48,436 bases of DNA from Clostridia bacterium. Its GTDB lineage: Bacteria > Bacillota > Clostridia > Oscillospirales > RGIG577. Location of the stretch: the NCBI GenBank assembly GCA_017513095.1, contig JAFWDJ010000003.1, positions 1 through 48,436 of the forward strand, in the 5' to 3' direction. The notes beneath the pieces were generated by a model, which saw only the letters and a program-made list of their open reading frames with translations, was not told where the DNA came from and searched no databases. This document shows positions 1 to 43,744 of this stretch, piece after piece. A program made the position numbers and the translations under genes. Numbering within the stretch: the first letter of the stretch is position 1; every line of letters begins with the position of its first letter.

Positions 1-121
1 CCGTCTCGGCCCTTCGCTTCCGGCATTCATTTCTCCGAATGTGCTGAATTATCTGGTTGAGAATTACAACATTGCCCCGATCAGCACGCCGGAAGAAGAC
101 CTGAAGAAGATCTTAGGATAA
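1..121 (+). CDS. hcp: C-terminal end of hybrid-cluster protein (hydroxylamine reductase), 5' part outside window
   Basis: Only the last 39 codons are visible, in the frame starting at base 2 and ending at TAA 119-121. The peptide contains [13 protein letters not shown] and ends [11 protein letters not shown]. This closely resembles the C-terminus of the Hcp/Prismane family, whose members bind a hybrid iron-sulfur cluster and act on nitric oxide or hydroxylamine. Anaerobic Ni-CO dehydrogenases share a related C-terminal fold, so CooS is the main alternative. A strong hairpin terminator follows directly. It is the only plus-strand gene here that looks like ordinary chromosome to the left of the mobile-element remains. 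Confidence 0.6.
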
Positions 122-143
122 AAACCCACTATAAACGCAGCAG

Positions 144-180
144 CGCCTCTGAACCACATCGGTTCGGAGGCGTTTTCTCT
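144..180 (+). terminator. Rho-independent terminator after the hcp-like gene
   Basis: A 12-bp stem with one mismatch (144-155 paired with 161-172, loop ACATC) is followed by TTTTCTCTT. It lies 22 bases after the stop codon. Confidence 0.85.
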
Positions 181-250
181 TGTTCTGTATGTTTCAGCTA
201 TGAAGAAGGCTCGAACGAGCCCTCCGAGCCCCAAAAACGAGCCCTCGCCA

Positions 251-886
251 TTATGCCGCCACTACCCGTATCAAAGACGTAGTGCAGCTTTCGCACACGA
301 TCTCGTCCGCCTTGGGCTCCATCAGGTCCACCATCATGCGGATGATGTGGCGGGGCGTGCGGAACTGGCCGTTGACGCCCGCTGTGGCGATCTTGGAGAG
401 CAGATACTCGTACACGTCGCCCCGGGTGTCGGCGGCCTTGAGCTGGGCCATCTGCTCATAGATACCGTCCATTGCTGTGACGATCTTGTCCAGCATCAGA
501 GGAGTGGGGATCTTGAAAATGGCATCGCCCATATATTTGGAATAGGCGCTTTCCTTGTCACCGTGGAGCTCCTTGATGAACGGGAAGACCCATTCCTGCA
601 CGGTGCTGTACATCTTCCCTGCGGGGAAGTCGTGGAATACGCTCCATTTCAGCTGGCTGCCGTCGATGGTGCGGTCACCAATCTGCACTTCTTTGGCAAA
701 TACACTCTCATAAGGCAGGCCGAGCATGGCTGCTTCCTTGGCTCTGATATTGTCGGAATCATCCAGGTCATGGATGAACATCAGATAAGTCATCTGCTCT
801 ACAACATCAAGCGGATTCGTGATACCACCTGTCCAGAAGATTTCCCAAAGGCTGTCGATTTTGCTTTTCATTTCGCCTGTTACCAT
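251..886 (-). pseudogene. hsdM: Truncated type I restriction-modification methylase (HsdM) N-terminal fragment
   Basis: The 211-residue product matches the N-terminal helical domain and linker of type I DNA methyltransferases, including the segment FRTPRHIIRMMVDLMEPK that normally precedes the AdoMet-binding motif. Family members run to roughly 500 residues and continue with a DPxxGTxGF-type motif. Here the frame instead reads CESCTTSLIRVVAA and stops, so the AdoMet site and the NPPF-type catalytic motif are absent and it should not methylate DNA. A good Shine-Dalgarno (GAAGGAGTG) precedes the ATG, and the start lies 4 bases after the Fic stop codon, so it was or is co-transcribed with fic. 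No hsdS or hsdR is visible. The break at about 295 looks like a recombination junction. Confidence 0.8.
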
Positions 887-890
887 GTTC

Positions 891-1949
891 TCACTCCTTC
901 TCCCAGTTCCATGTGTATGAGGTGTAGCGGCCTCCGCCGATCTTGATGATCTCGCCGTTGTCCATCAATTCTTTCAACGCCCGTTCTACGGTCTTCTGGC
1001 TGATATCCGGGCACTGCTTCATGATCTGCGTCTTTGTGATTTTCCCCGTTGTGCTGCGGATGATCTCCCGCACACGTTCCGGCTTTGAGAGCCCTCTTGT
1101 AATCAGGACGTCTACCTTGGAAACGAATTCCCGGTAGGCCGCGATGACGATACCAAGCATATACCGGACGAAGGGGAGGTAATCGTTTGTGCCTTCATGC
1201 CAGCCGGTCGAGCTATCCTGCAGAACCTCGTAATAGGTGGTCTTGCTGTCTGCGATCAGCTTTTCGATACTGATATACTTTCCGACGAAATACCCGGAAC
1301 GATACAACAGAAGAAGCGTCAGCAGGCGGCTCATGCGGCCGTTCCCATCGTTGAAGGGATGAATGCAAAGGAAGTCCAGAATGAACATCGGCATCAGCAG
1401 AAGGGGATCCATTTCCGGATCCGTCAATGCCTCCTGGAATGCATTGCACAGGGAATCCATCGCCTCCGATGACTCCCAAGCCGGGACCGGCTGGAACCGT
1501 ACTCTTTTGCTCCCATCCGCAAGCTCTTCGGCAATGATATTATCGGAGTTCTTGAAGCTGCCCCCGATGGCCGAATTGCTGAATTTATAAAGATCCCGAT
1601 GCAGCTGCAAAATCATACCCGGCCTGATGGGAATAAAGTCATAGTTTTCGTGAATCGTGTTCAGCACATCACGATAACCGGCGATCTCGCGTTCACTCCG
1701 GCCCTTCGGGGTCGTCTTGTTCATCACGATCTTTTTCAGCCGGTCGTCGGTAGTGATAATGCCCTCGATGCGGTTGGATGCCTCCGTGCTTTGGATCTTT
1801 GCGATTTCCAGCAGCTCGGACAGGGCATCTTCCTGCGCTTCTATGAAAAGATTCTGCTGACCTTTCTGCTCATGGATCTGTGCGAGGTATGACACGATCT
1901 CAGGGGACAGCAGTTTCTGATATTCGGTTTTGTAATTCAATGTTCTCAT
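891..1949 (-). CDS. Fic-family adenylyltransferase with N-terminal inhibitory helix and C-terminal winged helix
   Basis: This 352-residue protein carries the complete Fic motif HPFNDGNGRMSR at residues 197-208, including the catalytic histidine and the phosphate-binding GNGR loop. Fic proteins transfer AMP from ATP to hydroxyl side chains of target proteins. Residues 58-63 (SNRIEG) match the (S/T)xxxE(G/N) inhibitory helix, placed N-terminal as in class II Fic proteins, so activity is expected to be self-restrained. Residues ~280-352 look like a winged-helix DNA-binding domain. It is the first gene of a two-gene unit with the hsdM fragment; Fic genes commonly sit inside type I restriction loci. 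The target protein cannot be read from sequence. A promoter and palindromic operator candidate lie upstream. Confidence 0.92.
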   Translation of the reverse strand: MRTLNYKTEYQKLLSPEIVSYLAQIHEQKGQQNLFIEAQEDALSELLEIAKIQSTEASNRIEGIITTDDRLKKIVMNKTTPKGRSEREIAGYRDVLNTIHENYDFIPIRPGMILQLHRDLYKFSNSAIGGSFKNSDNIIAEELADGSKRVRFQPVPAWESSEAMDSLCNAFQEALTDPEMDPLLLMPMFILDFLCIHPFNDGNGRMSRLLTLLLLYRSGYFVGKYISIEKLIADSKTTYYEVLQDSSTGWHEGTNDYLPFVRYMLGIVIAAYREFVSKVDVLITRGLSKPERVREIIRSTTGKITKTQIMKQCPDISQKTVERALKELMDNGEIIKIGGGRYTSYTWNWEKE

Positions 1950-1976
1950 TCATTTTCCTCTTTTCAGAGTTTAACA

Positions 1977-1990
1977 TAGTCATTTGACTA
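1977..1990 (-). promoter_or_regulatory. Palindromic operator candidate for fic
   Basis: The perfect inverted repeat TAGTCA-TT-TGACTA lies 28-41 bases upstream of the fic ATG and just downstream of its -10 box, where a repressor would block transcription. The Fic protein has a C-terminal winged helix, so self-repression is possible; this is inference. Confidence 0.5.
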
Positions 1991-2007
1991 TAGTATGACA
2001 CAGTTGC

Positions 2008-2036
2008 ATCTTATCATATGAAACGTCAAAAGTCAA
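2008..2036 (-). promoter_or_regulatory. Promoter of fic-hsdM unit
   Basis: On the minus strand TTGACT (2036-2031) is followed by exactly 17 bases and TAAGAT (2013-2008), a good vegetative promoter about 60 bases upstream of the fic start. Confidence 0.65.
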
Positions 2037-2297
2037 GTCAATAAAGCCATATGTTTCAGAAATGACTATATTGATTTGCTCGATGACGATAATAGTCGCA
2101 CTTATATTTTGGGGAGACACATTCTCCCTTATGTACCTGCGCCGGTCGTTACTGAAGTTTCATTCCGGATAGGAAAGGACATTTCAGTATTGGTTATATC
2201 AGTATTATTAGGGTATGATTTTCATCCTTCATGAGGAATGAAATACAGACTTCAGGAGGTCTGGGAATCATTCTTCTTGAATCACGTTCCCACAGAC

Positions 2298-2306
2298 TTA
2301 TCCACA
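2298..2306 (+). other. DnaA box next to the repA fragment
   Basis: TTATCCACA is an exact match to the consensus DnaA-binding site. It lies 35 bases beyond the end of the truncated replication initiator gene, inside a 10-bp inverted repeat pair. A single box proves little, but the position fits a relic plasmid or conjugative-element origin. Confidence 0.4.
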
Positions 2307-2340
2307 CAGTCCCGGCGCAGTATACCCTAATTATGGGGAA

Positions 2341-2679
2341 TTAAAATGTCTTTACGTAGATTCTGTTCGGCTTTGTCAGCCCGATCCTCTCGCAGTCGAT
2401 CAGGCCGATCTCTTTCAGTTCCTTCAGGAGCTTCACTGATTTCTGCTTGCAGCAGCCCATCATGCTGATGATCTCTTCTGCGGTGTAGTAGATGAAAACC
2501 CGCACGAGATCATCATGCCGGTTGTTTCTCGTTGAGAGTCCCATCCGGTCCAGCATCATCGCATACAGGACTTTGCCTTCCATAGACAGATCGTGATATT
2601 CCGGATCTGTAATAAGAGCCCGGGGAACCATCAGAAATGAAAAGTTCTTAACGTCAGTGATGAATCCTTCTTCGTCCAT
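2341..2679 (-). pseudogene. Truncated plasmid/ICE replication initiator, RepA_N domain only
   Basis: The 112 residues cover a RepA_N domain: FLMVPRALITDPEYHDLS, then LYAMMLDRMGLS, VFIYYTAEEII and a KSVKLLKELKEIGLI recognition region, ending PNRIYVKTF. This family initiates replication of low-copy plasmids and integrative elements of Gram-positive bacteria. Full-length members are usually about 250-350 residues; this one stops at the end of the N-terminal winged-helix domain, so it is probably a fragment. A 40-codon small gene ends two bases upstream, suggesting one transcript. A short stand-alone RepA_N regulator is possible but less likely given the wreckage around it. Confidence 0.8.
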
Positions 2680-2681
2680 TC

Positions 2682-2804
2682 TTACACCTCGTCTTTCTTC
2701 ATCCCGCCCGGGATGGCTGTCATCATTCGTATTACATCCAGCACCTCATCATCGACCGCCTGACCCGCCTCGATCCGCTTCAGTTCCTCCAGGGTACTTG
2801 CCAT
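2682..2804 (-). CDS. Small protein of unknown function upstream of the repA fragment
   Basis: A 40-codon frame starts at ATG 2804 and ends TAA 2682-2684, two bases before the repA ATG. The product begins MASTLEELKRIEAG and is charged and helical by composition. The frame stays open upstream of the ATG with protein-like codons, so the start could be earlier or this may be the tail of a broken gene. The Shine-Dalgarno is weak (AGGGATC). No family is recognised. The tight spacing argues that it belonged to the same mobile-element operon. Confidence 0.35.
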   Translation of the reverse strand: MASTLEELKRIEAGQAVDDEVLDVIRMMTAIPGGMKKDEV

Positions 2805-2812
2805 CTGATCCC

Positions 2813-3050
2813 TCAGAGCCTTATACACTCTCGAAGAGCCGATGACCGTGACTTCTTCTCCAGCATTTCCTCCTGCATGGAAGGGAACAGGTGGGCATAA
2901 CGGTAAGTGATATCAATGCTCTCATGCCCAACGCGGTCCGCTATCGCCACCGCCGAGAATCCCATGTGTATCAGCAGACTGACATGGCTGTGCCGGAGAT
3001 CATGGATACGGATCCGTTTCACACCGGCTGCCGCAGCGCCCCGATCTCTT
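2813..3050 (-). pseudogene. C-terminal fragment of a tyrosine recombinase (integrase)
   Basis: The minus strand encodes RIRIHDLRHSHVSLLIHMGF, then ADRVGHESIDITYRYAHLFP and a short tail ending at the TGA 2813-2815. These are the catalytic HxLRH box, the GH box and the tyrosine nucleophile region of phage/ICE-type tyrosine recombinases. Everything N-terminal to about residue GVKRIRI is missing, including the first catalytic arginine. The frame runs on into the antisense of an unrelated regulator, so the apparent longer reading frame is an artefact of a recombination joint at about 3050. The fragment cannot be an active integrase. Confidence 0.85.
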
Positions 3051-3058
3051 CGACCAGA

Positions 3059-3388
3059 AAATCCGGCAGCAGGACGCCTAAAGAGGACGTAATTCAGGAA
3101 ATGGCAAAGGTGCTTAAGGTCAAGCCCAAGGCTATCGCCGATCCCGACTACAACACTTACATAGGGCTCATGTACATGTTCTTCGACCTGGAAGTAACGT
3201 ACGGGATCCATGTGGACGAGATCGATGGGGAGCTCTGTCTCCGCCTGGATCGTTCCCGCAAGGACTGTACCGAGCTCTTCGATATGCTGCTGAAATGGAA
3301 CGAGGCCAGAAAGAACGGTCAGACCGATTTCGAATCTTCTGCTGCTTATGAAGAGTGGAAGCTCCATTACCCGCCCTACGGCCGTTAA
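3059..3388 (+). pseudogene. C-terminal fragment of an XRE-family regulator
   Basis: From about 3070 the plus strand reads RTPKEDVIQEMAKVLKVKP, then IGLMYMFFDLEVTYGI and EIDGELCLRLD, ending YEEWKLHYPPYGR. This resembles the last helix of a Cro/C1-type HTH domain followed by the C-terminal region found in many clostridial mobile-element regulators. The DNA-recognition helices are absent because the frame joins integrase antisense at about 3050. It faces head-on into the integrase fragment, so the joint is a deletion or inversion. A strong terminator follows at 3408. Confidence 0.65.
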
Positions 3389-3407
3389 CTGCGGATAAAC
3401 AAAAAGA

Positions 3408-3450
3408 AAAAGGCTATCTGAATCCACCTTGGATCAGATAGCCTTTTGTT
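3408..3450 (+). terminator. Terminator after XRE fragment, near guaA 3' end
   Basis: A perfect 14-bp stem (3408-3421 with 3434-3447) with a 12-base loop and flanking A and T runs. It can act in both directions and may also stop guaA transcripts. Confidence 0.85.
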
Positions 3451-3540
3451 CTTGAGAATAATCAGATTTAGATTGCTGTTGTCATTTTGTTGTCACAGGC
3501 TAAACAAATATGCTTGCAGCCCGCATAAATACAGGGTTTC

Positions 3541-3580
3541 AGAGATCGTTGATTCTCACTCCCACTCCACGGTTCCGGGA
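3541..3580. other. Candidate attachment site at the 3' end of guaA
   Basis: The last codons and stop of guaA (minus strand GTGGAGTGGGAGTGA) directly abut the mobile-element remains. The guaA 3' end is a known hotspot for integrative elements, which reconstitute the stop codon on entry. No second copy of this core is visible to the left within the window, so the partner end is either lost or outside. The call rests on position. Confidence 0.45.
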
Positions 3581-7739: not shown

Positions 7740-8480
7740 ATGAAAAAATCAAAGCTTCTGTTATGCGTTATTTCGGTTATTCTTGTGATTGCTTTAATTT
7801 TGCCTGCCTACGCCGCGGAGGGCGTTCCCGCCCTTACTGTTAAAGTGGACGGCACAGCCGTGCAGTGGACGGACGCCGTGCCGTTCATCAATTCGGACGG
7901 CCGCACGATGGTCCCGCTTCGCGCCGTGGGCGACGCGCTCGGCCTTGAGGTGAGCTGGAACGGCGAGGCGCGCGAGGCCGTATTCACCGACGGAAGCAAA
8001 ACGATATACTTCGTCATCGACAACAACGTCGCGCGCACGAGTACGGGCATAGACGTTGAAATGGACACCGCCGCGGTCATCTCTAATTCGAGGACTTACG
8101 CTCCCGTTCGCTATCTCGCCGAATTCTTCGGCTATAAGGTAAGCTGGAACGCATCCCTTCGCGCCGTTATCATCGAAAGCCCCGCCGAAGTGACCCCGCC
8201 CGACGAGGGCTCGTCCGGCGAGGATGCAAACGTAAGCGCCGGCCCGTATACGGACGAGCAGCTCTGCAAAATGGCCGGCGAGTATTATGAGGCGGCATAC
8301 GGCATAATGCCTCCCTTTATCGACGTAACAAGCGTTGAAGGCGATATTGTAACGCTGCACCTCTATGATATAGTCTACAATCACGCCGACACCTATGAAT
8401 GGTACACCATAGACCGCAACACCGGCAAGGGCCACAACTTCTTCGGTAAGGAAGTTGACCTTACAAATCCGGCGAAGTAA
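7740..8480 (+). CDS. Secreted protein with copper-amine-oxidase N-terminal-like domain
   Basis: The 246-residue product has a signal peptide (basic start, hydrophobic core, cleavage near AYAAEG at about residue 26). Residues ~34-148 form two copper amine oxidase N1-like units, seen as GRTMVPLRAVGDALG with VSWNG and SRTYAPVRYLAEFFG with VSWNA. In clostridia this domain is a common module of exported wall-associated proteins and does not imply amine oxidase activity. The C-terminal ~75 residues after a low-complexity linker are not recognised. Start is fixed by AGGAGG and a perfect promoter. A bidirectional terminator follows, inside the left copy of a 62-bp repeat. Confidence 0.85.
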   Translation: MKKSKLLLCVISVILVIALILPAYAAEGVPALTVKVDGTAVQWTDAVPFINSDGRTMVPLRAVGDALGLEVSWNGEAREAVFTDGSKTIYFVIDNNVARTSTGIDVEMDTAAVISNSRTYAPVRYLAEFFGYKVSWNASLRAVIIESPAEVTPPDEGSSGEDANVSAGPYTDEQLCKMAGEYYEAAYGIMPPFIDVTSVEGDIVTLHLYDIVYNHADTYEWYTIDRNTGKGHNFFGKEVDLTNPAK

Positions 8481-8484
8481 TATA

Positions 8485-8546
8485 AACGCGCATTAAAAAA
8501 GCGGGCTTTCGCCCGCTTTTTTAATATATCCTATTCCCCTATTTTC
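8485..8546. repeat. Left copy of 62-bp direct repeat framing the CoiA-like gene
   Basis: Matches 9997-10058 at 59 of 62 positions in the same orientation. The copy contains the bidirectional terminator and, at 8531-8546, the same bases as the last five codons and stop of the ThiY-like gene at the other copy, although no such gene is here. It is therefore a duplicate of the ThiY gene end. Confidence 0.95.
8492..8525. terminator. Bidirectional terminator (left copy)
   Basis: A 14-bp perfect stem ATTAAAAAAGCGGG / CCCGCTTTTTTAAT around a short loop, with A and T runs on both sides. It serves the gene ending at 8480 and the opposing CoiA-like gene ending at 8564. Confidence 0.95.
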
Positions 8547-8563
8547 AAAAAGCATCAAGCAGT

Positions 8564-9922
8564 CTATTTCCATTTTAAAACAGCCTCTAATTTGTTTTTT
8601 GGCAATCTGCGTAGAAGCTCCCTCTTTATTTTCCAATTTGGATCGGGAATGTACGGATCAATAGATTGTATGATTTCCTTCAATATAGACGCTGTTTCGC
8701 TGTCCGGCGCTTCCAAAGATTTAGGGCGCGTTGAAAGACCTTTACGCCCACACATTGAAACAAATCCGATAAACTCAAGGTAATCAAAATATCGTTTAAC
8801 TACATCATAAGGAAGACTTATTTCCTGTTCTATCCCATTTAAGTTTACGTGAATGTCGCATATCATCCGCTTATCAACATGCAGCTTCAAACGGTTCTCT
8901 GAGATGCTTTTTTGAATACTGTCGACGGTAAACGTAGTTGTTGGTTGCCCGAATCCATAATAAACATAGTCATCAAATAATTTTCCTTGCCATTTGCGAC
9001 GATCACACCCAAAAACAAATTCTCCCGTAATCGGTATATCTATATAAAACGGTTGCTCAAGCGTGTTTTTTGAAAAACGAAATTTTTTTAGCCAACACTC
9101 TGCTTGTCGGTCGCTGCGCAGTTTTTTTAAAGCATTCTTATAGTTCTCCGGAAGAAATGTTTGCCGCAATTCTATAATAGCCTGTTTGCTCTTTTCTCTG
9201 CTTTTTTGCAAATCTCTTTCTCTTTGTTTCTTGATTTTATCAAACTCCGTTTTCTTTTTTTCAAATTCTGCTTTCTTTTCTTTGAGTCGACGCATTCTTT
9301 TTGGATTATAAATCCATTCTCTGTTATCGTTGTCCCGCAAAACCGCTTCAGTAACGTCTCCTTTGGTATGCTTTTCTTTTACCAAACGGCTCAAGTCAAT
9401 TTCAATCATCGCAATATTGTGCTTTTCGGCTTTTTTCTTCTTTTCTTCATCCACAAAATTTGTCACGGCAATCTCAATTATGCATGGTTTGTTATCTATA
9501 TGAATAAACGCATCCGCAACGATTCCCTCCAACCTTTTTTCAATTTCAACAGTATCATATTTATATATCCCCTCAGGATAAGCAGGAAGTTCATTTTCAT
9601 CTTCTAATGCTATTATAGTGCCGCGTTCATCGCCCACAATCTCGTCTATACTGATAGACCATCCCGGTAAAGCTATCTCGTTGCTCTCCTTGATAATCTC
9701 TTTAGCTAACAAATGCAGTGCCGTTTGTTGTGCTTTTAAATCATTGCAAACATAATTAGCCTTATGTGCAAAATGATGCTGCCGCACTTCTCCAAGTTTT
9801 GCAACAAGCTCTTTATGACATACCGGACATATACAATTACACTTTTCCCCTCTGCTGTCCGCACCTATCTCATCAATGTGAACTATTTTTCCGTCCCTTA
9901 TCCCATATGACAGTTTAATCAT
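8564..9922 (-). CDS. CoiA-like predicted nuclease on a repeat-framed, A+T-rich insert
   Basis: The 452-residue protein has an N-terminal cysteine/histidine cluster (C28, C30, C32, C35, then HHFAH at 49-53 and C59) like the zinc-finger of CoiA-like proteins. A restriction-like core follows, with D137 in VADAFIHIDNKP and E150 in IIEIAVTNF. Residues ~208-255 form a Lys/Glu-rich coiled coil, and the ~190-residue C-terminal region is unrecognised. CoiA acts in competence, but CoiA-like proteins are widespread and mostly uncharacterised. No competence genes are near. Codon use is markedly A+T-rich against its neighbours, which with the 62-bp repeats indicates recent acquisition. A defence or DNA-processing role is inference only. 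Confidence 0.75.
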   Translation of the reverse strand: MIKLSYGIRDGKIVHIDEIGADSRGEKCNCICPVCHKELVAKLGEVRQHHFAHKANYVCNDLKAQQTALHLLAKEIIKESNEIALPGWSISIDEIVGDERGTIIALEDENELPAYPEGIYKYDTVEIEKRLEGIVADAFIHIDNKPCIIEIAVTNFVDEEKKKKAEKHNIAMIEIDLSRLVKEKHTKGDVTEAVLRDNDNREWIYNPKRMRRLKEKKAEFEKKKTEFDKIKKQRERDLQKSREKSKQAIIELRQTFLPENYKNALKKLRSDRQAECWLKKFRFSKNTLEQPFYIDIPITGEFVFGCDRRKWQGKLFDDYVYYGFGQPTTTFTVDSIQKSISENRLKLHVDKRMICDIHVNLNGIEQEISLPYDVVKRYFDYLEFIGFVSMCGRKGLSTRPKSLEAPDSETASILKEIIQSIDPYIPDPNWKIKRELLRRLPKNKLEAVLKWK

Positions 9923-9996
9923 TATGTCTCACCTCGAAACGTCGGCCCATAATATATAAGCATATCTAATTTATAGCACATTTAAAGTCCCTTCGC

Positions 9997-10058
9997 AACG
10001 CGCACTAAAAAAGCGGGCTTTCGCCCGCTTTTTTAATATGCCCTATTCCCCTATTTTC
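9997..10058. repeat. Right copy of 62-bp direct repeat, overlapping the ThiY-like gene end
   Basis: 59 of 62 bases equal 8485-8546. It overlaps the stop codon (10043-10045) and last codons of the ThiY-like gene, so this copy is the native one. Confidence 0.95.
10004..10037. terminator. Terminator of the thiamin-salvage operon (right copy)
   Basis: Same hairpin as at 8492-8525 apart from one substitution at the foot of the stem. On the minus strand it follows the ThiY-like stop codon. Confidence 0.95.
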
Positions 10059-11053
10059 GCAACAAGCGTGTCCATATCGACGTCGCCTTTTATTATGCCG
10101 ATCTCCTTTTCCCACTCGGCGAGGGCCTTCCAGCTTTCCTCGTTTATCTCAAGAAATCCGTGCTCGTCGGACGCCATGAGCGGAAGGAGTATATCCATGC
10201 TCATAGCCTCTACCGCGGCGTCGAGCGGATAATTCGCCTTATCCTGATTTGCGAGCAGTATAGAGAGCGCCTCCTCGGGATCGTTCTTCATATCCTCAAA
10301 GCCGCGCTTCGACGCGCGCATGAACCGCTCGAGCTTATCGCTCTCGTTTTTCACCTGCGACTCGCCCGTGATGAGCACGAGCTCCTCGTAATCGGGCACG
10401 CCCTCGTCCGTTATGTCGAAGTAAACGACGTCCATGCCCTCGTTTATAAGCTCGGGGTACTCGTGATTTATATACGCGCCTATGATGGCGTCAACGTTTC
10501 CCGTGATAAGCGAGGCGTTCACGTCGAAGCCCACGTCGATAAGGTTTATCTCATCCACAGAAAAGCCGTTCTTCTTCGCCATCGCCGCGAGATAATACTC
10601 GTTGTCGGTCGTGCCGGGGTAGCCCACGGTCTTGCCGCGAAGGTCCGCGGCGCCGTTTATGCCGCTCTCCCTCATCGAGATTACCACGTTAAGAGGATGC
10701 GCGACTACCGTGCCGAGTATCCTTATCGGTATATTCTGATTTACAGCCGTCTGGATTATATTCGGCTGATAATAAAGGCCCGCGTCGGCCTTGCCCGCCG
10801 CCGTCATCGTTATCGCGTCGTTCGTATTCGCGGGAAGCTGAACGTGAACGTTTAAGCCCTCCTCGGCGTAATAGCCCTTCTCTATTGCCACGTATATGAA
10901 CGAATGCACCGCGTTCGGGTACCAGTCAAGCACTATATCGAAATCCTCAAGCTCGCCCGAGTCCGACTCCCCGCCCGAGCCCGAGCTGCACGCCGCAAGC
11001 ATTACGGCCATACAGAGCGCGAGAGCGAGCGCGATTATCTTTTTTATTTTCAT
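10043..11053 (-). CDS. thiY: Thiamin-pyrimidine ABC transporter substrate-binding lipoprotein (ThiY/NMT1-like)
   Basis: The 336-residue product has a lipoprotein signal ending AVMLAACSS and an NMT1/THI5-type periplasmic-binding fold: DIVLDWYPNAVHSFIYVA, GYYAEEGLNV, GKADAGLYY and GKTVGYPGT. In Bacillus, ThiY binds formylaminopyrimidine, a breakdown product of thiamin, for import by ThiXZ. Here it is second in a two-gene unit under a TPP riboswitch, which supports that substrate over the sulfonates or other ligands bound by related proteins. The permease and ATPase partners are not in the window. The 3' end is part of the duplicated 62-bp repeat. Confidence 0.85.
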   Translation of the reverse strand: MKIKKIIALALALCMAVMLAACSSGSGGESDSGELEDFDIVLDWYPNAVHSFIYVAIEKGYYAEEGLNVHVQLPANTNDAITMTAAGKADAGLYYQPNIIQTAVNQNIPIRILGTVVAHPLNVVISMRESGINGAADLRGKTVGYPGTTDNEYYLAAMAKKNGFSVDEINLIDVGFDVNASLITGNVDAIIGAYINHEYPELINEGMDVVYFDITDEGVPDYEELVLITGESQVKNESDKLERFMRASKRGFEDMKNDPEEALSILLANQDKANYPLDAAVEAMSMDILLPLMASDEHGFLEINEESWKALAEWEKEIGIIKGDVDMDTLVAKIGE

Positions 11054-28798: not shown

Positions 28799-28933
28799 AT
28801 TTGTGCTTATTATACGCGGTTTCCGCCGCGGTGTCAAGATATAGAATAAGGAGCGGCGCGTGCGTCCTTATTGGCTCCCTCCCCGAGGGAGCTGTCGGCG
28901 CAGCGTTCTTCGGGATTGTCGTCCCCCGTCCTT

Positions 28934-29010
28934 CGTAGGGAGGCGTCCCCTGACGCCTCCGCGTGTCTCAGCCGTGTTTTCACGGAGGCATGAAGGCATG
29001 CCTCCCTACG
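28934..29010. repeat. Composite nested inverted repeat
   Basis: Outer arms CGTAGGGAGGC (28934-28944) and GCCTCCCTACG (29000-29010) are perfect complements. Inside are two further hairpins: GGAGGCGT/ACGCCTCC (28939-28946, 28953-28960) and GGAGGCATG/CATGCCTCC (28984-28992, 28997-29005). They share bases, so alternative folds compete. Confidence 0.85.
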
Positions 29011-29232
29011 GGCGCACGATTGATAACTCAATGCACAAAAATGCCTTATCGCAAAGTCTTTAACCCACCTCCCTCCTTACTTACGCCTTCCTGTCCTGCT
29101 TCAACATAATTCTTTTTCAGAACTTCGTTCTAAAGACTTTTGTCGCCTCCCGCGGGGGTACTTTTGGAAACAAAAGTACCAAAATCCGGGCCCCCGAAAA
29201 ATACGCTCGCGGATTTTTTGGGGTGGTATTGA

Positions 29233-37523: not shown

Positions 37524-40500
37524 TTACTCCGTGAACGCCCTGTATATGAATGTCACTATCTGTGCTCTCGTACACGGCGCGTCGGGCGAGAAGTGCGCCG
37601 CATCCGTGCCCGTCGTTATGCCGCGTGACGCGGCCCACGACGCCGCGTCGGCGTAATACGCGCCGTCCGGTACGTCCTCTAAGGCCGTGTCGCCTTCGAC
37701 AGGCGCTCCCTTCATGCGGTACAGAAGCGTTACGACCTGCGCGCGCGTGCATACATCGTCGGGCGAAAAATGCGTCTCGTCCGTGCCCGTCGTTATGCCG
37801 TTTGCGACCGCCCACAGAACGGCCTTTTCATAAAAGCTTCCCGCCGGAACGTCGCTGAACGCAGTATCCGTCTCCCCTGCCTCGGGAGAGCCCGCCGCGC
37901 GGTACAAAAACGTCACGACCTGCGCACGCGTGCACGCGGCGTCGGGCGAAAAGTGCGTCTCGTCGGTGCCCGTCGTTATGCCGTTTGCGACCGCCCACAT
38001 CACGGGCGTGTAGTAATAAGAGCTTTCGTCCGTGTCGACAAATACCGTCTTCATCATGCCGTCGCCGTCGAGCATGTAATCGTCCGCCGATACAAACTCC
38101 GGCGTTACGGTGACCTTCGTCGCGGGCATCGTGAACGTATACGTGCCGTCCGCGTTCGCGGTAACGGCAACGGCTTTGCCGTTTGCGTCCGTGACGGTCA
38201 CTCCCGCCGTTTTGAAGCCTTCTTTAGGCGTTACGGTCACGGTGACCTTCTCGCCGCTTTTCGCGCTGTTTGCGCTGAATGAAACGGAGCCGTTTTCGGA
38301 CACAGCCGCCGCGACCTCATTCTTCGCGGACTGAGATGCGGACGAGCCGCCGCCTCCGCCGCCGCCGCCTCCGCCGGACGAGGCCGAAGTCACCGTAAAC
38401 GACGCCTCCGCAGGGCCGCCGTCGTCAAATCTTGCCGAAAGCGTATGCGCCCCCTCCGAAAGCGTATCGAGATATTCCGGCGCAATCGTAAGAACGCCCG
38501 ACTCGCTCATCGTAAAGTCTCCGTCCGCGAGCGCGGCGCCGTCCACGGCCGCCCCGGTGAAGTGTTCGGGGAGCGTATCGCTGTTCTGCGAACGCGCGAA
38601 CGTAAACGAAGGGCCCGTGTTCGATTTCATCCTCCATACGGAGCCGCTGCCGCGCGTACACGTATATTCAAACTTTTCGCGCGGCACGGCGAACGCCTTT
38701 ATCGGGAAGTTGTCAAAAACGCATCCTTCCCTGTTTATCGAAACCAACTCTGCGGCAAATATTTCCGACTTCATGTGCTCTCCCCAATCAAACCATTCAC
38801 CTTCGTCATACCTGAAGCTTTCGCCCGGATTTACGACCGATACGTAATAAGAAGCATATCCCAGCTGTGCCGCCTTTTCCTTACCTACGCCCCCTCTTAT
38901 ATAGGCCGAGTATTCGCGGCTGCCGTCTTCGGTCATACTGTAAGCCGTGACAACGACGGAAAAGCGGTCGCCGCGGTCGAGCTCGGGCTCGGTCTCAAGG
39001 TCAATGCGGTGATATCCCGCATATTCAAACCACCTCGAAGTCCGCTCAAGAAGCGTTCCTTCCGTGGGCGTAAGCGCGCCGTCGTCAAGTCTGTATACGG
39101 CGACCGTCACGCGCATATTCCCAAAGTATGTCGAAAAGCCTGCCGAAACGAGCTTCACGTCATCCTCCGCGGTAAACACGTTTGCCGTACCGTGCACATC
39201 GTTCGAAGTATATAATAAAGGATAGCTCGTCGGAATATAGTCATACTGATACGTAAAGACCTCCTTATCCGTCGGGCTTTTCGCGAAGACCATGCTTTCA
39301 AGCGGTTCTTTTAACGAGGTGTCGTAATACGAAAGGTAAAAGCATCCGCTGCCGTCTATGCCCCAATCGTTTTTTCCTATGGCACGGCCGCTTTCGCTTT
39401 CGCCGCACCCCCCGCTTCGGCCCCAGCTGTTCTTAACTATCCATGCGCCGTCGCCGGGAGGAGTCCTGCAAAGACCCGTTTCTTCATCGACGCCCCCGTT
39501 AAAATTGTCGCGCGAATACGTATCGTCCCAGCCCACGATACATACGGCATGGCTCGAGGGGCTGCCGTCGAAAGTATAGTGAGCCCACGTGTCCTTGTTC
39601 ATATACCTCTCATCGTCGGTCACGCCGGGGTTCGGCATCGTTCCGCAGAACGCAACGGCAAGGCCGCGGCCGCATAACAGCTCCTTCTTTGCCGCCGTCA
39701 TGCCTTCTTCACTGAGACCCGCCCACGCGCCGTTTTCATCCAAAAGAGCGACCGGGGACAGAAAATTGCAGTCCGTAAGCGTGTATCCCGCCGTAAGGCT
39801 CCTGTTCGATCTGCCTAAGGAGTCGGTCTCGGGTATGCTCCAGTCGTCCGCCGCGCTGTAAAAATCGGCTCTTTCGCCGCTTTCGAGCTTCTCAAGTTCG
39901 TCTGCGTATGACCATTCAAGATACTCATACAAATACTCTTCCGTAATGTCGAAGGCTTTCAGAAGCTCGGGAAGGGTCATATTATATGCCGTAAGATATC
40001 TGTTCTTTTCATTCTCTATCCATTCGTCGTGATTGTCGCGCATATACTCGTATTCCGTAATGCCCTCACTCCCGCGATACGGAAAAAGCTCCTCCTCCGC
40101 GGGCCCCGCTCCAGAGGAAAATACCGCCTCCGCCCATCGAATTCTGCCGGCCACGTTAAAAACGGCGTTCGGATCGTTTTCCTCGTTAAAGCAATGTATT
40201 CCCTCGCCGGCCTGAGCGGGATCTGTAAGCTCGGTTATCGGATGACCGGTAAACCACGCAAGATGCTTCTCCGAAAGGTCTAAAGGCATTTCCTCATACG
40301 TCTTGCCGGCGGCCGAAAGTATGCTCGTCTCCGCCGCCGCTGTCACGGCAAACGAAACGCACGTGCCGAACGGAGACTGCTGTTTTGCGGGTGTTACGAC
40401 GCCCTCGTCGATAAGGCAAAAGCGCGACGGAAGCGCGCCCGAAAGCTCTGCCGTCTCTTTTTCGTCCTCGCCCGTGTCTATTGCCCATTCGGGCAGCGCG

Positions 40501-40628
40501 TCCTCATCGAACGCGGCGGCCGCGCTTTCAAGCTTTATTTCCGCAACGTCTGCCGCAAGGCCCGCCGCGGGCAGCATCGTAATCGCCAGTGCAATCGCCG
40601 CGATGAGACATAAAACCTTCTTTTTCAT
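37524..40628 (-). CDS. S-layer-anchored papain-family protease, copy 2 (altered active site)
   Basis: The 1034-residue protein has a signal peptide (cleavage near AAGLAAD), a papain-like C1 domain with Gln84, Cys90, His360 and Asn400 (KQQSPFGTCVSF; SPSSHAVCIVGWDD; WIVKNSWG), a beta-rich lectin-like domain to ~690, an Ig-like segment, a run of ten glycines, a bacterial-repeat (Flg_new-like) module and three SLH domains at ~862-1034 for wall anchoring. The Trp that normally follows the catalytic Cys is Val91 and the preceding loop is SPF instead of GGF, so activity may be altered. It lies 26 bases after its tandem paralogue. Confidence 0.88.
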   Translation of the reverse strand: MKKKVLCLIAAIALAITMLPAAGLAADVAEIKLESAAAAFDEDALPEWAIDTGEDEKETAELSGALPSRFCLIDEGVVTPAKQQSPFGTCVSFAVTAAAETSILSAAGKTYEEMPLDLSEKHLAWFTGHPITELTDPAQAGEGIHCFNEENDPNAVFNVAGRIRWAEAVFSSGAGPAEEELFPYRGSEGITEYEYMRDNHDEWIENEKNRYLTAYNMTLPELLKAFDITEEYLYEYLEWSYADELEKLESGERADFYSAADDWSIPETDSLGRSNRSLTAGYTLTDCNFLSPVALLDENGAWAGLSEEGMTAAKKELLCGRGLAVAFCGTMPNPGVTDDERYMNKDTWAHYTFDGSPSSHAVCIVGWDDTYSRDNFNGGVDEETGLCRTPPGDGAWIVKNSWGRSGGCGESESGRAIGKNDWGIDGSGCFYLSYYDTSLKEPLESMVFAKSPTDKEVFTYQYDYIPTSYPLLYTSNDVHGTANVFTAEDDVKLVSAGFSTYFGNMRVTVAVYRLDDGALTPTEGTLLERTSRWFEYAGYHRIDLETEPELDRGDRFSVVVTAYSMTEDGSREYSAYIRGGVGKEKAAQLGYASYYVSVVNPGESFRYDEGEWFDWGEHMKSEIFAAELVSINREGCVFDNFPIKAFAVPREKFEYTCTRGSGSVWRMKSNTGPSFTFARSQNSDTLPEHFTGAAVDGAALADGDFTMSESGVLTIAPEYLDTLSEGAHTLSARFDDGGPAEASFTVTSASSGGGGGGGGGGSSASQSAKNEVAAAVSENGSVSFSANSAKSGEKVTVTVTPKEGFKTAGVTVTDANGKAVAVTANADGTYTFTMPATKVTVTPEFVSADDYMLDGDGMMKTVFVDTDESSYYYTPVMWAVANGITTGTDETHFSPDAACTRAQVVTFLYRAAGSPEAGETDTAFSDVPAGSFYEKAVLWAVANGITTGTDETHFSPDDVCTRAQVVTLLYRMKGAPVEGDTALEDVPDGAYYADAASWAASRGITTGTDAAHFSPDAPCTRAQIVTFIYRAFTE

Positions 40629-40654
40629 ATGAACGACCGTCCTTTCCCCGGTTT

Positions 40655-43600
40655 TTACTCACAAAACGCCCTGTATATGAACGTCACTATCTGCGCGCGC
40701 GTGCACGGCGCGTCGGGCGAAAAGTGCGTCTCGTCCGTGCCCGTAGTTATGCCGCGCTCTGCGGCCCACGACGCCGCGTCGGCGTAATACGCGCCGTCCG
40801 GTACGTCCGCGAAGGGATTTTCTCCCCCTGCGGGCGAGCCCTTCATGCGGTAGAGAAGCGTTACGACCTGCGCGCGCGTGCACGGCGCGTCGGGCGAGAA
40901 ATGCGTGTCATCCGTGCCCGTCGTTATGCCGCTCTCGACCGCCCACATAACGGCTTTTTCATAAAAGCTGCCCGCCGGAACGTCGCTGAACGTACTGTTT
41001 GACTCCCCTGCCTCGGGCGAGCCCGCCGCGCGATACAGGAACGTCACGACCTGGGCGCGCGTACACGCGGCGTCGGGCGAAAGATGCGTCTCGTCCGTGC
41101 CGCGAACGATTCCGTTCGAGTACGCCCACGCCAAAGGCGTGTAATAATATGCGTTTTTATCTATATCATCAAATAATTCCTTCATCATGCCGTCGCCGTC
41201 GAGCATATTGTCATCTTTGAATACAAACTCCGGCGTTACGGTGACCTTCGACGCGGGCATCGTGAACGTATACGTGCCGTCCGCGTTCGCGGTCACGGCA
41301 ACGGCTTTGCCGTTTGCGTCCGTGACGGTCACGCCCGCCGTTTTGAAGCCTGCCTTCGGCGTTACGGTCACGGTGACCTTCTCGCCGCTCTTTGCGCTCT
41401 TTGTACTGAAGGAAACGGAGCCTCCTTCGGACTCAGCCGCCGCAATCGCGTTCTTCGCGGACTGAGATGCGGACGAGCCGCCGCCCCCGCCGCCGCCGGA
41501 CGCAGTCGAAGTCACCGTAAACGACGCCTCCGCGGGGCCGCCGTCGTCAAAGCTTACGGAAATCGTATGAGCCCCCTCCGAAAGCGTGTCGAGAAATTCC
41601 GCCTTAAGCGTAAGAACGCCCGATTCGCTCATCGTAAAGCAGCCGTCCGCGAGCGCGGCGCCGTCCACGTCCGCTCCGGTGAAATGCTCGGCAATCGTAT
41701 CGCTGTTCTGCGAACGCGAGAACGTAAACGAAAGGCCCACGTTCGATTTCGTCCTCCATACGGAGCCGCCGCCTCGCGTACACGTATATTCAAACGATTC
41801 GCGCGGCACTGCGAACGCCTTTATCGGAAGGTTGTCACAAACGCATCCGTTAAGATCTTTCGAATCCAAATAGGCGGCGAATTTCCCGGTTTGCACAAAC
41901 TCGCCCCAATCGTACCATTCACCTTCTTCATAAATGAAGCTTTCGCCCGGATTTACTACCGATTTGAAATAATAATCCTGTCCCAGCTCCGCGGCCTTAT
42001 CCTTGCCTTCACCCGTTTTGACCGAGGTCGAATATTCACAGCTGCCGTCGTCGGTCATGCTGTAAGCCGTGACAACAACGGAAAAACGGTCGCCCCGATC
42101 GAGCGAGGGCGCGCTCTCAAGGTCAACGCGGTGATATCCCTCATATTCAAGCGTTCTTGAGGTCCGCTCAAGAAGCGTTCCCTCCGTGGGCAAAAGCGCG
42201 CCGTCGTCAAGTCTGTATACGGCGACCGTCACGCGCGTATTTTCATCGGCCGCACAAACGCCTGTCGAAACGAGCTTCACGTCGTCCTCCGCGGTGAACA
42301 CTCCGGCCGTACCCAGCACACTGCCCGAAGAGTAATCCGAAACAGTATTGGGCGGCATATAGTCATACTGATACGTTACGACCTCCGTTTCCGTCGGGCT
42401 TTTCGAGAAAGCCATGCTTTCCATCGATTCCTTTAACGAGGTGTCGTAATACGAAAGGTAGAAGTATCCGCTGCCGTCTATGCCCCAATCGGTTTTTCCT
42501 ATAACGCGGCCGCTTTCGCTTACGCCGCAGCCTTCGCTTGTGCCCCAGCTGTTCTTAACTATCCATGCGCCGTCGCCGGGAGGGGTCCTACATAGACCCG
42601 TTTCTTCATCAATGCCCTGATTGAAATTGTCGCGCGAATACGTATCGTCCCAGCCCACGATACATACGGCATGGCTCGAGGGGCTGCTGTCGAACGTATA
42701 GTGAGCCCATGTGTCTTTGTTCATATACCGATCATCGTCGCTCACGCCGGGGTTCAGCATTGTTCCGCAGAAGCCAACGGCAAGACCGTGACCGCATAAC
42801 AGCTCCTTCTTCGCCGCCGTCATGCCTTCTTCATTGAGACCCGTCCACACGTCGTTTTCATCAAAAAGAGCGACGAGGGGCAGGACGTTGTAGTCCACAA
42901 GCGTGTATCCCGCCGTAAGTGTCCTGTTCGATCTTCCGAAGGAGTCGGTCTCGGGTATGGTCCAGTCGTCCATCCCGCTGTTGGCATCGCCTATTATGCC
43001 GCTTTCTAACCGCTCAATATCTCTTGCATAGGCCTGCTCAAGAAGCTCGTTGAACTCCTCTTCCGTCAGGTCACGGGCTTTTAGAAACTCGGAAAGAGTC
43101 ATATTATATGTCTCTAAAATTCCGGCTGCTACGGTCTCTATCCATTCGTCGTGTCTGTCGCGCATATACTCGTATACCGTAAAGCCCTCGCGCCCGCGAT
43201 ACGGGAAAAGCGCTTCCTCCGCGGGGCCCGCTCCCGAGGAAAAGGCCGCCTCCGACCATCGAAATATGCCGGCCGCGTTAAAAACGGCGTTCGGATCGTT
43301 TTCCTCCCTGAAAGCATATGCTCCCTCGCCGGCCTGAGCCGGATCGGTAAGCTCGGTTATCGGATGACCGGCAAACCACGCAAGATGCTTCTCCGAAAGG
43401 TCTAAAGGCGTTTCCTCGTACGTCGTGCCGGAGGCCGAAAGTATGCTCGTCTCCGCCGCCGCTATCGCGGCAAACGCCCAGCACGTGCCGAACCCGCCCT
43501 GATCCTTCACGGGTGTTACGACGCCCCCGTCGATAAGGCAAAAGCGCGACGGAAGCGCGGCGGAAAGCTCCGCCGCGTCTTTTTCGGCCTCGCCCGTATC

Positions 43601-43744
43601 AACAGCCCATTCGGGCAGCGCGCCCGCGTCGGGCGCGGCGGCAAAAGCCTGCGGCATCATTGCCGCCGTCATGAAAACGGCCGTGATTATCGAAATCGCG
43701 GCGCGTACTGCTCGCCGTTTTAATCCGTTCGCATTGTTTTTCAT
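40655..43744 (-). CDS. S-layer-anchored papain-family protease, copy 1
   Basis: The 1029-residue protein has the same layout as its neighbour: signal peptide ending PQAFAAAPD, C1 domain with intact VKDQGGFGTCWAF (Gln82, Cys88, Trp89), SSHAVCIVGWDD and VKNSWGTS, lectin-like region, Ig-like segment, a glycine run of six, a bacterial-repeat module and three SLH repeats with the form TGTDETHFSPDAPCTRAQ. Papain proteases of this type in gut clostridia probably cut extracellular proteins at the cell surface. It precedes copy 2 in the same direction with 26 bases between, so the two are likely co-transcribed. Confidence 0.9.
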   Translation of the reverse strand: MKNNANGLKRRAVRAAISIITAVFMTAAMMPQAFAAAPDAGALPEWAVDTGEAEKDAAELSAALPSRFCLIDGGVVTPVKDQGGFGTCWAFAAIAAAETSILSASGTTYEETPLDLSEKHLAWFAGHPITELTDPAQAGEGAYAFREENDPNAVFNAAGIFRWSEAAFSSGAGPAEEALFPYRGREGFTVYEYMRDRHDEWIETVAAGILETYNMTLSEFLKARDLTEEEFNELLEQAYARDIERLESGIIGDANSGMDDWTIPETDSFGRSNRTLTAGYTLVDYNVLPLVALFDENDVWTGLNEEGMTAAKKELLCGHGLAVGFCGTMLNPGVSDDDRYMNKDTWAHYTFDSSPSSHAVCIVGWDDTYSRDNFNQGIDEETGLCRTPPGDGAWIVKNSWGTSEGCGVSESGRVIGKTDWGIDGSGYFYLSYYDTSLKESMESMAFSKSPTETEVVTYQYDYMPPNTVSDYSSGSVLGTAGVFTAEDDVKLVSTGVCAADENTRVTVAVYRLDDGALLPTEGTLLERTSRTLEYEGYHRVDLESAPSLDRGDRFSVVVTAYSMTDDGSCEYSTSVKTGEGKDKAAELGQDYYFKSVVNPGESFIYEEGEWYDWGEFVQTGKFAAYLDSKDLNGCVCDNLPIKAFAVPRESFEYTCTRGGGSVWRTKSNVGLSFTFSRSQNSDTIAEHFTGADVDGAALADGCFTMSESGVLTLKAEFLDTLSEGAHTISVSFDDGGPAEASFTVTSTASGGGGGGGSSASQSAKNAIAAAESEGGSVSFSTKSAKSGEKVTVTVTPKAGFKTAGVTVTDANGKAVAVTANADGTYTFTMPASKVTVTPEFVFKDDNMLDGDGMMKELFDDIDKNAYYYTPLAWAYSNGIVRGTDETHLSPDAACTRAQVVTFLYRAAGSPEAGESNSTFSDVPAGSFYEKAVMWAVESGITTGTDDTHFSPDAPCTRAQVVTLLYRMKGSPAGGENPFADVPDGAYYADAASWAAERGITTGTDETHFSPDAPCTRAQIVTFIYRAFCE

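Follow-up and report, generated by a model that had tools for sequence, protein, structure and literature searches.

Tyrosine-integrase elements of Firmicutes characteristically leave direct repeats that contain the 3′ end of a gene, 12 to 54 bp long and in some cases reaching into the intergenic region (PMC4701971). Reported att repeats span 8 to 60 bp, cis-mobilizable elements (CIMEs) are those in which the integrase has been lost and attL and attR have been kept, and tandem accretion has been described (PMC5704250). CoiA has been assigned to the PD-(D/E)XK nucleases (PMC1189080), and functional anti-phage selection has yielded a CoiA-domain protein (PMC9519451). Here, we report an analysis of a CoiA-like gene framed by duplicated copies of a neighboring gene end in the window (the whole 48,436-nucleotide stretch of DNA analyzed); the cassette is most probably an eroded island of this known sort, integrated at a gene end.

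Results

Bases 8485 to 8546 and 9997 to 10058 match in direct orientation at 59 of 62 positions, ungapped and at an offset of 1,512 bp (BLAST of one flank against the other, E = 1.6e-23), which reproduces the match originally predicted. The copies differ at three positions, their longest exact run is 34 bp, and identity extends 2 bp beyond the left copy (AA at 8483 to 8484); the second-best 62-bp match to the repeat anywhere in the window reaches 34 of 62. The right repeat (9997 to 10058, minus strand) is, as had been proposed, the native 3′ end of a thiY-like gene, comprising its last five codons, stop codon, and hairpin terminator. The left, distal repeat (8485 to 8546, minus strand) has the same codons, stop, and terminator with no gene attached, also as proposed. 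The terminator-like site lies at 10026 to 10011 in the right repeat and at 8514 to 8499 in the left, where it serves both coiA and the convergent gene at 7740 to 8480. Along the coding strand, the order is thiY, tail and terminator, coiA, a second tail and terminator, and the convergent native gene. Occurrence of the repeat at many unrelated terminators had been named as evidence against an insertion; the hairpin core alone does recur at other terminators of the genome (C8 twice, C42, C40, C27, and C44), but the thiY-codon tail CCTATTCCCCTATTTTC is matched nowhere else in it, so the left copy is derived from thiY and is not merely a similar terminator.

The whole cassette between the repeats (8547 to 9996) is 1,450 bp long, with a GC content of about 0.38 and no terminal inverted repeats (terminal match, 8 of 21, below the shuffled mean of 9.0). 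Its cargo is one gene (8564 to 9922, minus strand; 452 amino acids), and the A+T-richness relative to neighbors that had been noted was borne out by measurement: GC is 0.378 and GC3 is 0.351, against 0.50 to 0.60 and 0.55 to 0.75 for the remaining window genes, none of which approaches these values.

CoiA_N (PF25164) was matched at residues 26 to 60 (E = 4.2e-10; 39.4 bits, cutoff 26.3), and C28, C30, C32, C35, H53, C59, D137, E150, and K161 are all invariant in ten homologues, in agreement with the predicted zinc cluster from C28 to C59. The predicted nuclease core fared less evenly: D137 and E150 are both among the invariant residues, but the 452-residue protein has no match to the CoiA_nuc Pfam domain. 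The active-site motif consists of D137 and E150-I-A152 with the invariant K161, where E-x-K/Q would be expected. Judged by these residues, the protein is likely a nuclease, an activity that is likely rather than proven because the nuclease-domain Pfam hit is missing and E150 is followed by I-A and not by x-K/Q. CoiA_N, the Cys/His cluster, and D137/E150/K161 are followed by a coiled coil and a C-terminal region (CDRR.WQ motif) common only to a few relatives, namely G102 and two Legionella MAGs; G102 is the sole relative in the order with this region (34% over residues 2 to 389). No solved structure was significantly similar in a profile search (best E = 0.076), and a structure prediction built from three sequences (mean pLDDT, 34) was not used.

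Within the order, CoiA-like genes occur sporadically, in 16 of 394 genomes; conjugative plasmids often carry them. No relatives of the protein were found among phage records or in viral contigs, and the thiY-end string occurs in no viral contig. The extra relatives from a class-wide profile search were all weak, the informative G504 among them. No tRNA or Rfam features were found. At G029:C39 (L125/L111), a CoiA-like N-terminal and nuclease part is fused to a UvrD/PcrA-like helicase, named by eye from its motifs, in a frame of 1,109 amino acids.

The thiY-like gene that is the source of the repeat (10043 to 11053, minus strand) encodes an NMT1/THI5 substrate-binding protein (PF09084, E = 3.9e-64) and is intact, with its full length of 336 amino acids and the NMT1 domain complete (1 to 216 of 216). 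The left edge of the cassette is bordered by the native convergent gene (7740 to 8480, plus strand), which encodes a copper amine oxidase N-terminal domain protein and has no orthologue at the corresponding place in the congeners. The CoiA-like gene has no hit in either of the two sequenced congeners, both of which carry thiY followed by the glt operon; in the source genome, the glt operon sits on another contig. Congener G001 is collinear with the window between 10044 and 28680, a stretch that stops exactly at the thiY end. Left of thiY, the guaA-hisF block and an acyltransferase gene correspond to other locations in the congeners, so that the thiY end marks both a rearrangement and an insertion. 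The check for an empty site in relatives, as originally suggested, gave a divided answer: because gene order left of thiY differs in both congeners, with synteny breaking at the thiY stop, a clean empty site at this locus cannot be shown and that comparison was rejected, whereas an empty site is present in a congener of an analogous locus (G261, below).

Other repeated sequences were also observed. An intergenic element of 250 to 600 bp (28854 to 29185 in the window, G000:C8:9695-10325, and over 50 other places genome-wide; 81 BLAST pieces, 70 to 98% identity) is often found as inverted pairs and at the ends of contigs, and similar-looking text sits after thiY in congener G002. Two large tandem paralogous genes (37524 to 43744; 1,034 and 1,029 amino acids) have long direct repeats in common that are about 85% identical.

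The original statement that transposases and integrases are absent is correct for the cassette, and no integrase lies directly beside it, but the window does contain a degenerate tyrosine-integrase remnant, the C-terminal catalytic part, at about 2830 to 3050 (minus strand), just past the guaA 3′ end and about 5 kb from the cassette. It belongs to a decayed integrative element that occupies positions 1 to 3550, at the guaA 3′ end, and also has a RepA_N gene (2341 to 2679) and a Fic gene (891 to 1949); the guaA-hisF match with the congeners begins at about 3550. This remnant suggests that gene-end integration has occurred in the source genome. As the mover of coiA it was rejected, since nothing in the neighborhood of the guaA end and the remnant resembles the 62-bp unit.

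The proposed search for other CoiA-like genes in duplicated frames covered 22 loci, the window included, and scored direct repeats across the gene with a length of 40 bp or more and an identity of 85% or more. Two further cases were found, so that three of the 22, in three families (window, G261, and G504), are framed by duplicated host gene ends and 19 are without such repeats. In G261, the CoiA-like gene lies between 381-bp duplicates (97.6% identity) that each span the tail of one gene and the beginning of cdaA; the insert also holds a sigma-70 region 4 open reading frame and an RNA-polymerase alpha-CTD-like one, and the spare cdaA copy carries a deletion at a CGTCGG microhomology. The empty site was verified in G243, a congener of G261, where the order is uninterrupted. 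The CoiA-like gene of G504 is paired with an XRE regulator; a 5′-truncated and an intact peptide-deformylase gene flank the pair, another truncated copy follows past the next module, and each of the three copies runs to the stop codon. PDC-S28 and a GmrSD-type gene are further members of this defense island. The deformylase copies, at L122 5584 to 5934, 8282 to 8692, and 13897 to 14158, mark a gene-end insertion hot spot amid defense-type modules. With two copies 5′ truncated, all of them ending exactly at the stop codon, and cargo modules between them, the arrangement resembles tandem accretion at a gene 3′ end. These two distant relatives, G261 and G504, strengthen the insertion reading of the window.

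Such repeats were present in 7 of 342 control segments, and a single pair of tandem paralogues accounts for 6 of these (Fisher P = 0.017 with all controls, P = 0.009 with the window and the paralogue hits both removed, and P = 0.09 with the window alone removed; the control set is rich in core genes, and the window itself was chosen for its repeat). The enrichment of duplicated gene ends at CoiA-like loci is suggestive, not firm, because the controls consist of core genes, and accessory genes of any kind may show the same pattern.

Discussion

The original description of a one-gene cassette whose arrival duplicated a long target stands insofar as the gene is foreign, absent from the congeners, and framed, but the layout fits an attL/attR pair equally well. 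The account that we regard as best placed, and hold with middling confidence, is that a foreign CoiA-like gene inserted behind thiY as an island at a gene 3′ end that was then stripped of its integrase (CIME-like). A compact island carrying the CoiA-like gene for a putative PD-(D/E)XK nuclease, probably of an anti-invader type, would have entered by recombining into the thiY 3′ end, and the 62-bp repeats would be att-type junctions (attL/attR), one copy having been brought in by the element. One copy would restore the thiY tail and terminator; the other would be the displaced tail, now a terminator for coiA. The integrase may have been lost from the island, or integration may have been supplied in trans, as in CIMEs. 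This CIME-like account is supported by the repeat and the composition of the gene, by its absence from both congeners, by the published features of tyrosine-integrase elements and CIMEs, by the likeness of G504 to tandem accretion, by the defense context of relatives, and by elements of the neighborhood that integrate at gene 3′ ends (the integrase remnant, RepA_N, and Fic beside guaA). It is weakened by the lack of an integrase in or beside the cassette, by the unlikeness of the guaA-linked remnant's site to the thiY repeat, by a repeat length (62 bp) at the upper end for att repeats, by the G261 duplication, which at 381 bp or more and reaching into the next gene is longer than any att core, and by the missing empty site at the same locus, where glt genes follow thiY in both congeners. 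We know of no element that uses the thiY end as its integration site.

Insertion-duplication by ordinary recombination, with no dedicated mobility enzyme, is the main alternative, and we entertain it tentatively. A short tandem duplication could have taken up foreign DNA at its junction, or a single crossover could have integrated a circle, or a transformed fragment, that contained the thiY end. G261 bears this out in duplicating at least 381 bp, from a gene end into cdaA, with the spare copy decaying by the CGTCGG deletion, and the 5′ borders of the duplicated stretches vary among loci (16 bp, about 40 bp, and 262 to 351 bp inside the gene). Duplications bordering a cassette do arise by transformation, though documented ones are 100 to 900 kb (PMC3784515). 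Against recombination, 62 bp is short for an efficient homologous crossover, and what is duplicated in the window and in G504 is a cleanly bounded gene end that includes the terminator or the stop codon. The window layout fits the CIME-like account best, and the longer duplication of G261 fits recombinational insertion-duplication better; both agree that a foreign putative nuclease gene has lodged behind an undamaged thiY, using a duplicated terminator.

That CoiA-type minimal cassettes install themselves behind host genes, duplicating the gene end with involvement of the nuclease and with no classical integrase or transposase, which would make the window, G261, and G504 independent cases, each at a target of its own, we think improbable. 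Homing-like movement, in which the nuclease would cut an empty gene-end site and repair would copy the cassette in, the duplicated end preserving the host gene, strikes us as quite improbable: nuclease genes are the cargo that the framed loci have in common, and framing was seen at 3 of 22 CoiA-like loci against 7 of 342 controls, but those controls are rich in core genes and the window was picked for its repeat, the targets (thiY, the gene upstream of cdaA, and deformylase) differ and therefore offer no common recognition site, most CoiA-like loci (19 of 22) have no repeats, and other G504 modules are framed likewise.

It is very unlikely that no insertion took place, that is, that the terminators became alike independently or by local duplication around an old resident coiA, or that the contig was misassembled. 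The hairpin core is indeed present at other terminators of the genome, but the thiY-codon tail is unique in it, the gene is missing in both congeners, and its GC3 is far out of range; had the contig been wrongly joined to DNA of another organism, the far side would lack thiY-derived sequence, and the two copies differ at three positions. These readings are largely refuted. Usual transposon target duplications run from a few to about 14 bp, and a transposon insertion with a long target-site duplication, although foreign DNA does have direct repeats at both ends, is the least credible reading, with 62 bp far exceeding that range and neither terminal inverted repeats nor a transposase in the cassette.

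By analogy with its relatives, the role favored for the CoiA-like protein is defense against invading DNA, given the defense-island context of those relatives and the CoiA-domain protein recovered by anti-phage selection. The G504 relative adjoins PDC-S28 and GmrSD, and a Legionella relative lies near PDC-M68B. No PADLOC model was matched; the only hit, DruB1, covers the CoiA_N stretch at E = 0.016. A competence role is neither supported nor excluded.

If the att reading is true, the cassette is among the smallest gene-end islands, and single defense-type genes can lodge without harm to neighbors or to transcription termination. Should the framing of CoiA-like genes by duplicated host ends hold in a wider survey, it would point to an undescribed route of defense-gene acquisition.

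The closest likeness is to CIMEs and decayed ICEs and IMEs in the 3′ ends of housekeeping genes of Firmicutes (guaA, rpsI, rplL, and lysS), in which the repeats contain the target 3′ end, the target gene is intact, the cargo is accessory, and the integration genes may be missing, as in the window. Unlike these, the window cassette is one gene of 1.45 kb with no recognizable integrase relic, its target is a thiY-like gene plus terminator, and its repeat slightly exceeds the published 12 to 54 bp. With the CoiA family (PF25164, CoiA_N; PF06054, CoiA_nuc), the window protein shares the Cys/His cluster and a putative D/E nuclease core, but it is 452 amino acids long, with a coiled coil, a rare C-terminal region, and no CoiA_nuc match. 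Transformation merodiploids of Streptococcus pneumoniae likewise hold a foreign cassette between duplicated host sequences (PMC3784515), but their duplications are of about 100 to 900 kb and depend on chromosomal repeats, whereas those seen here span tens to hundreds of base pairs.
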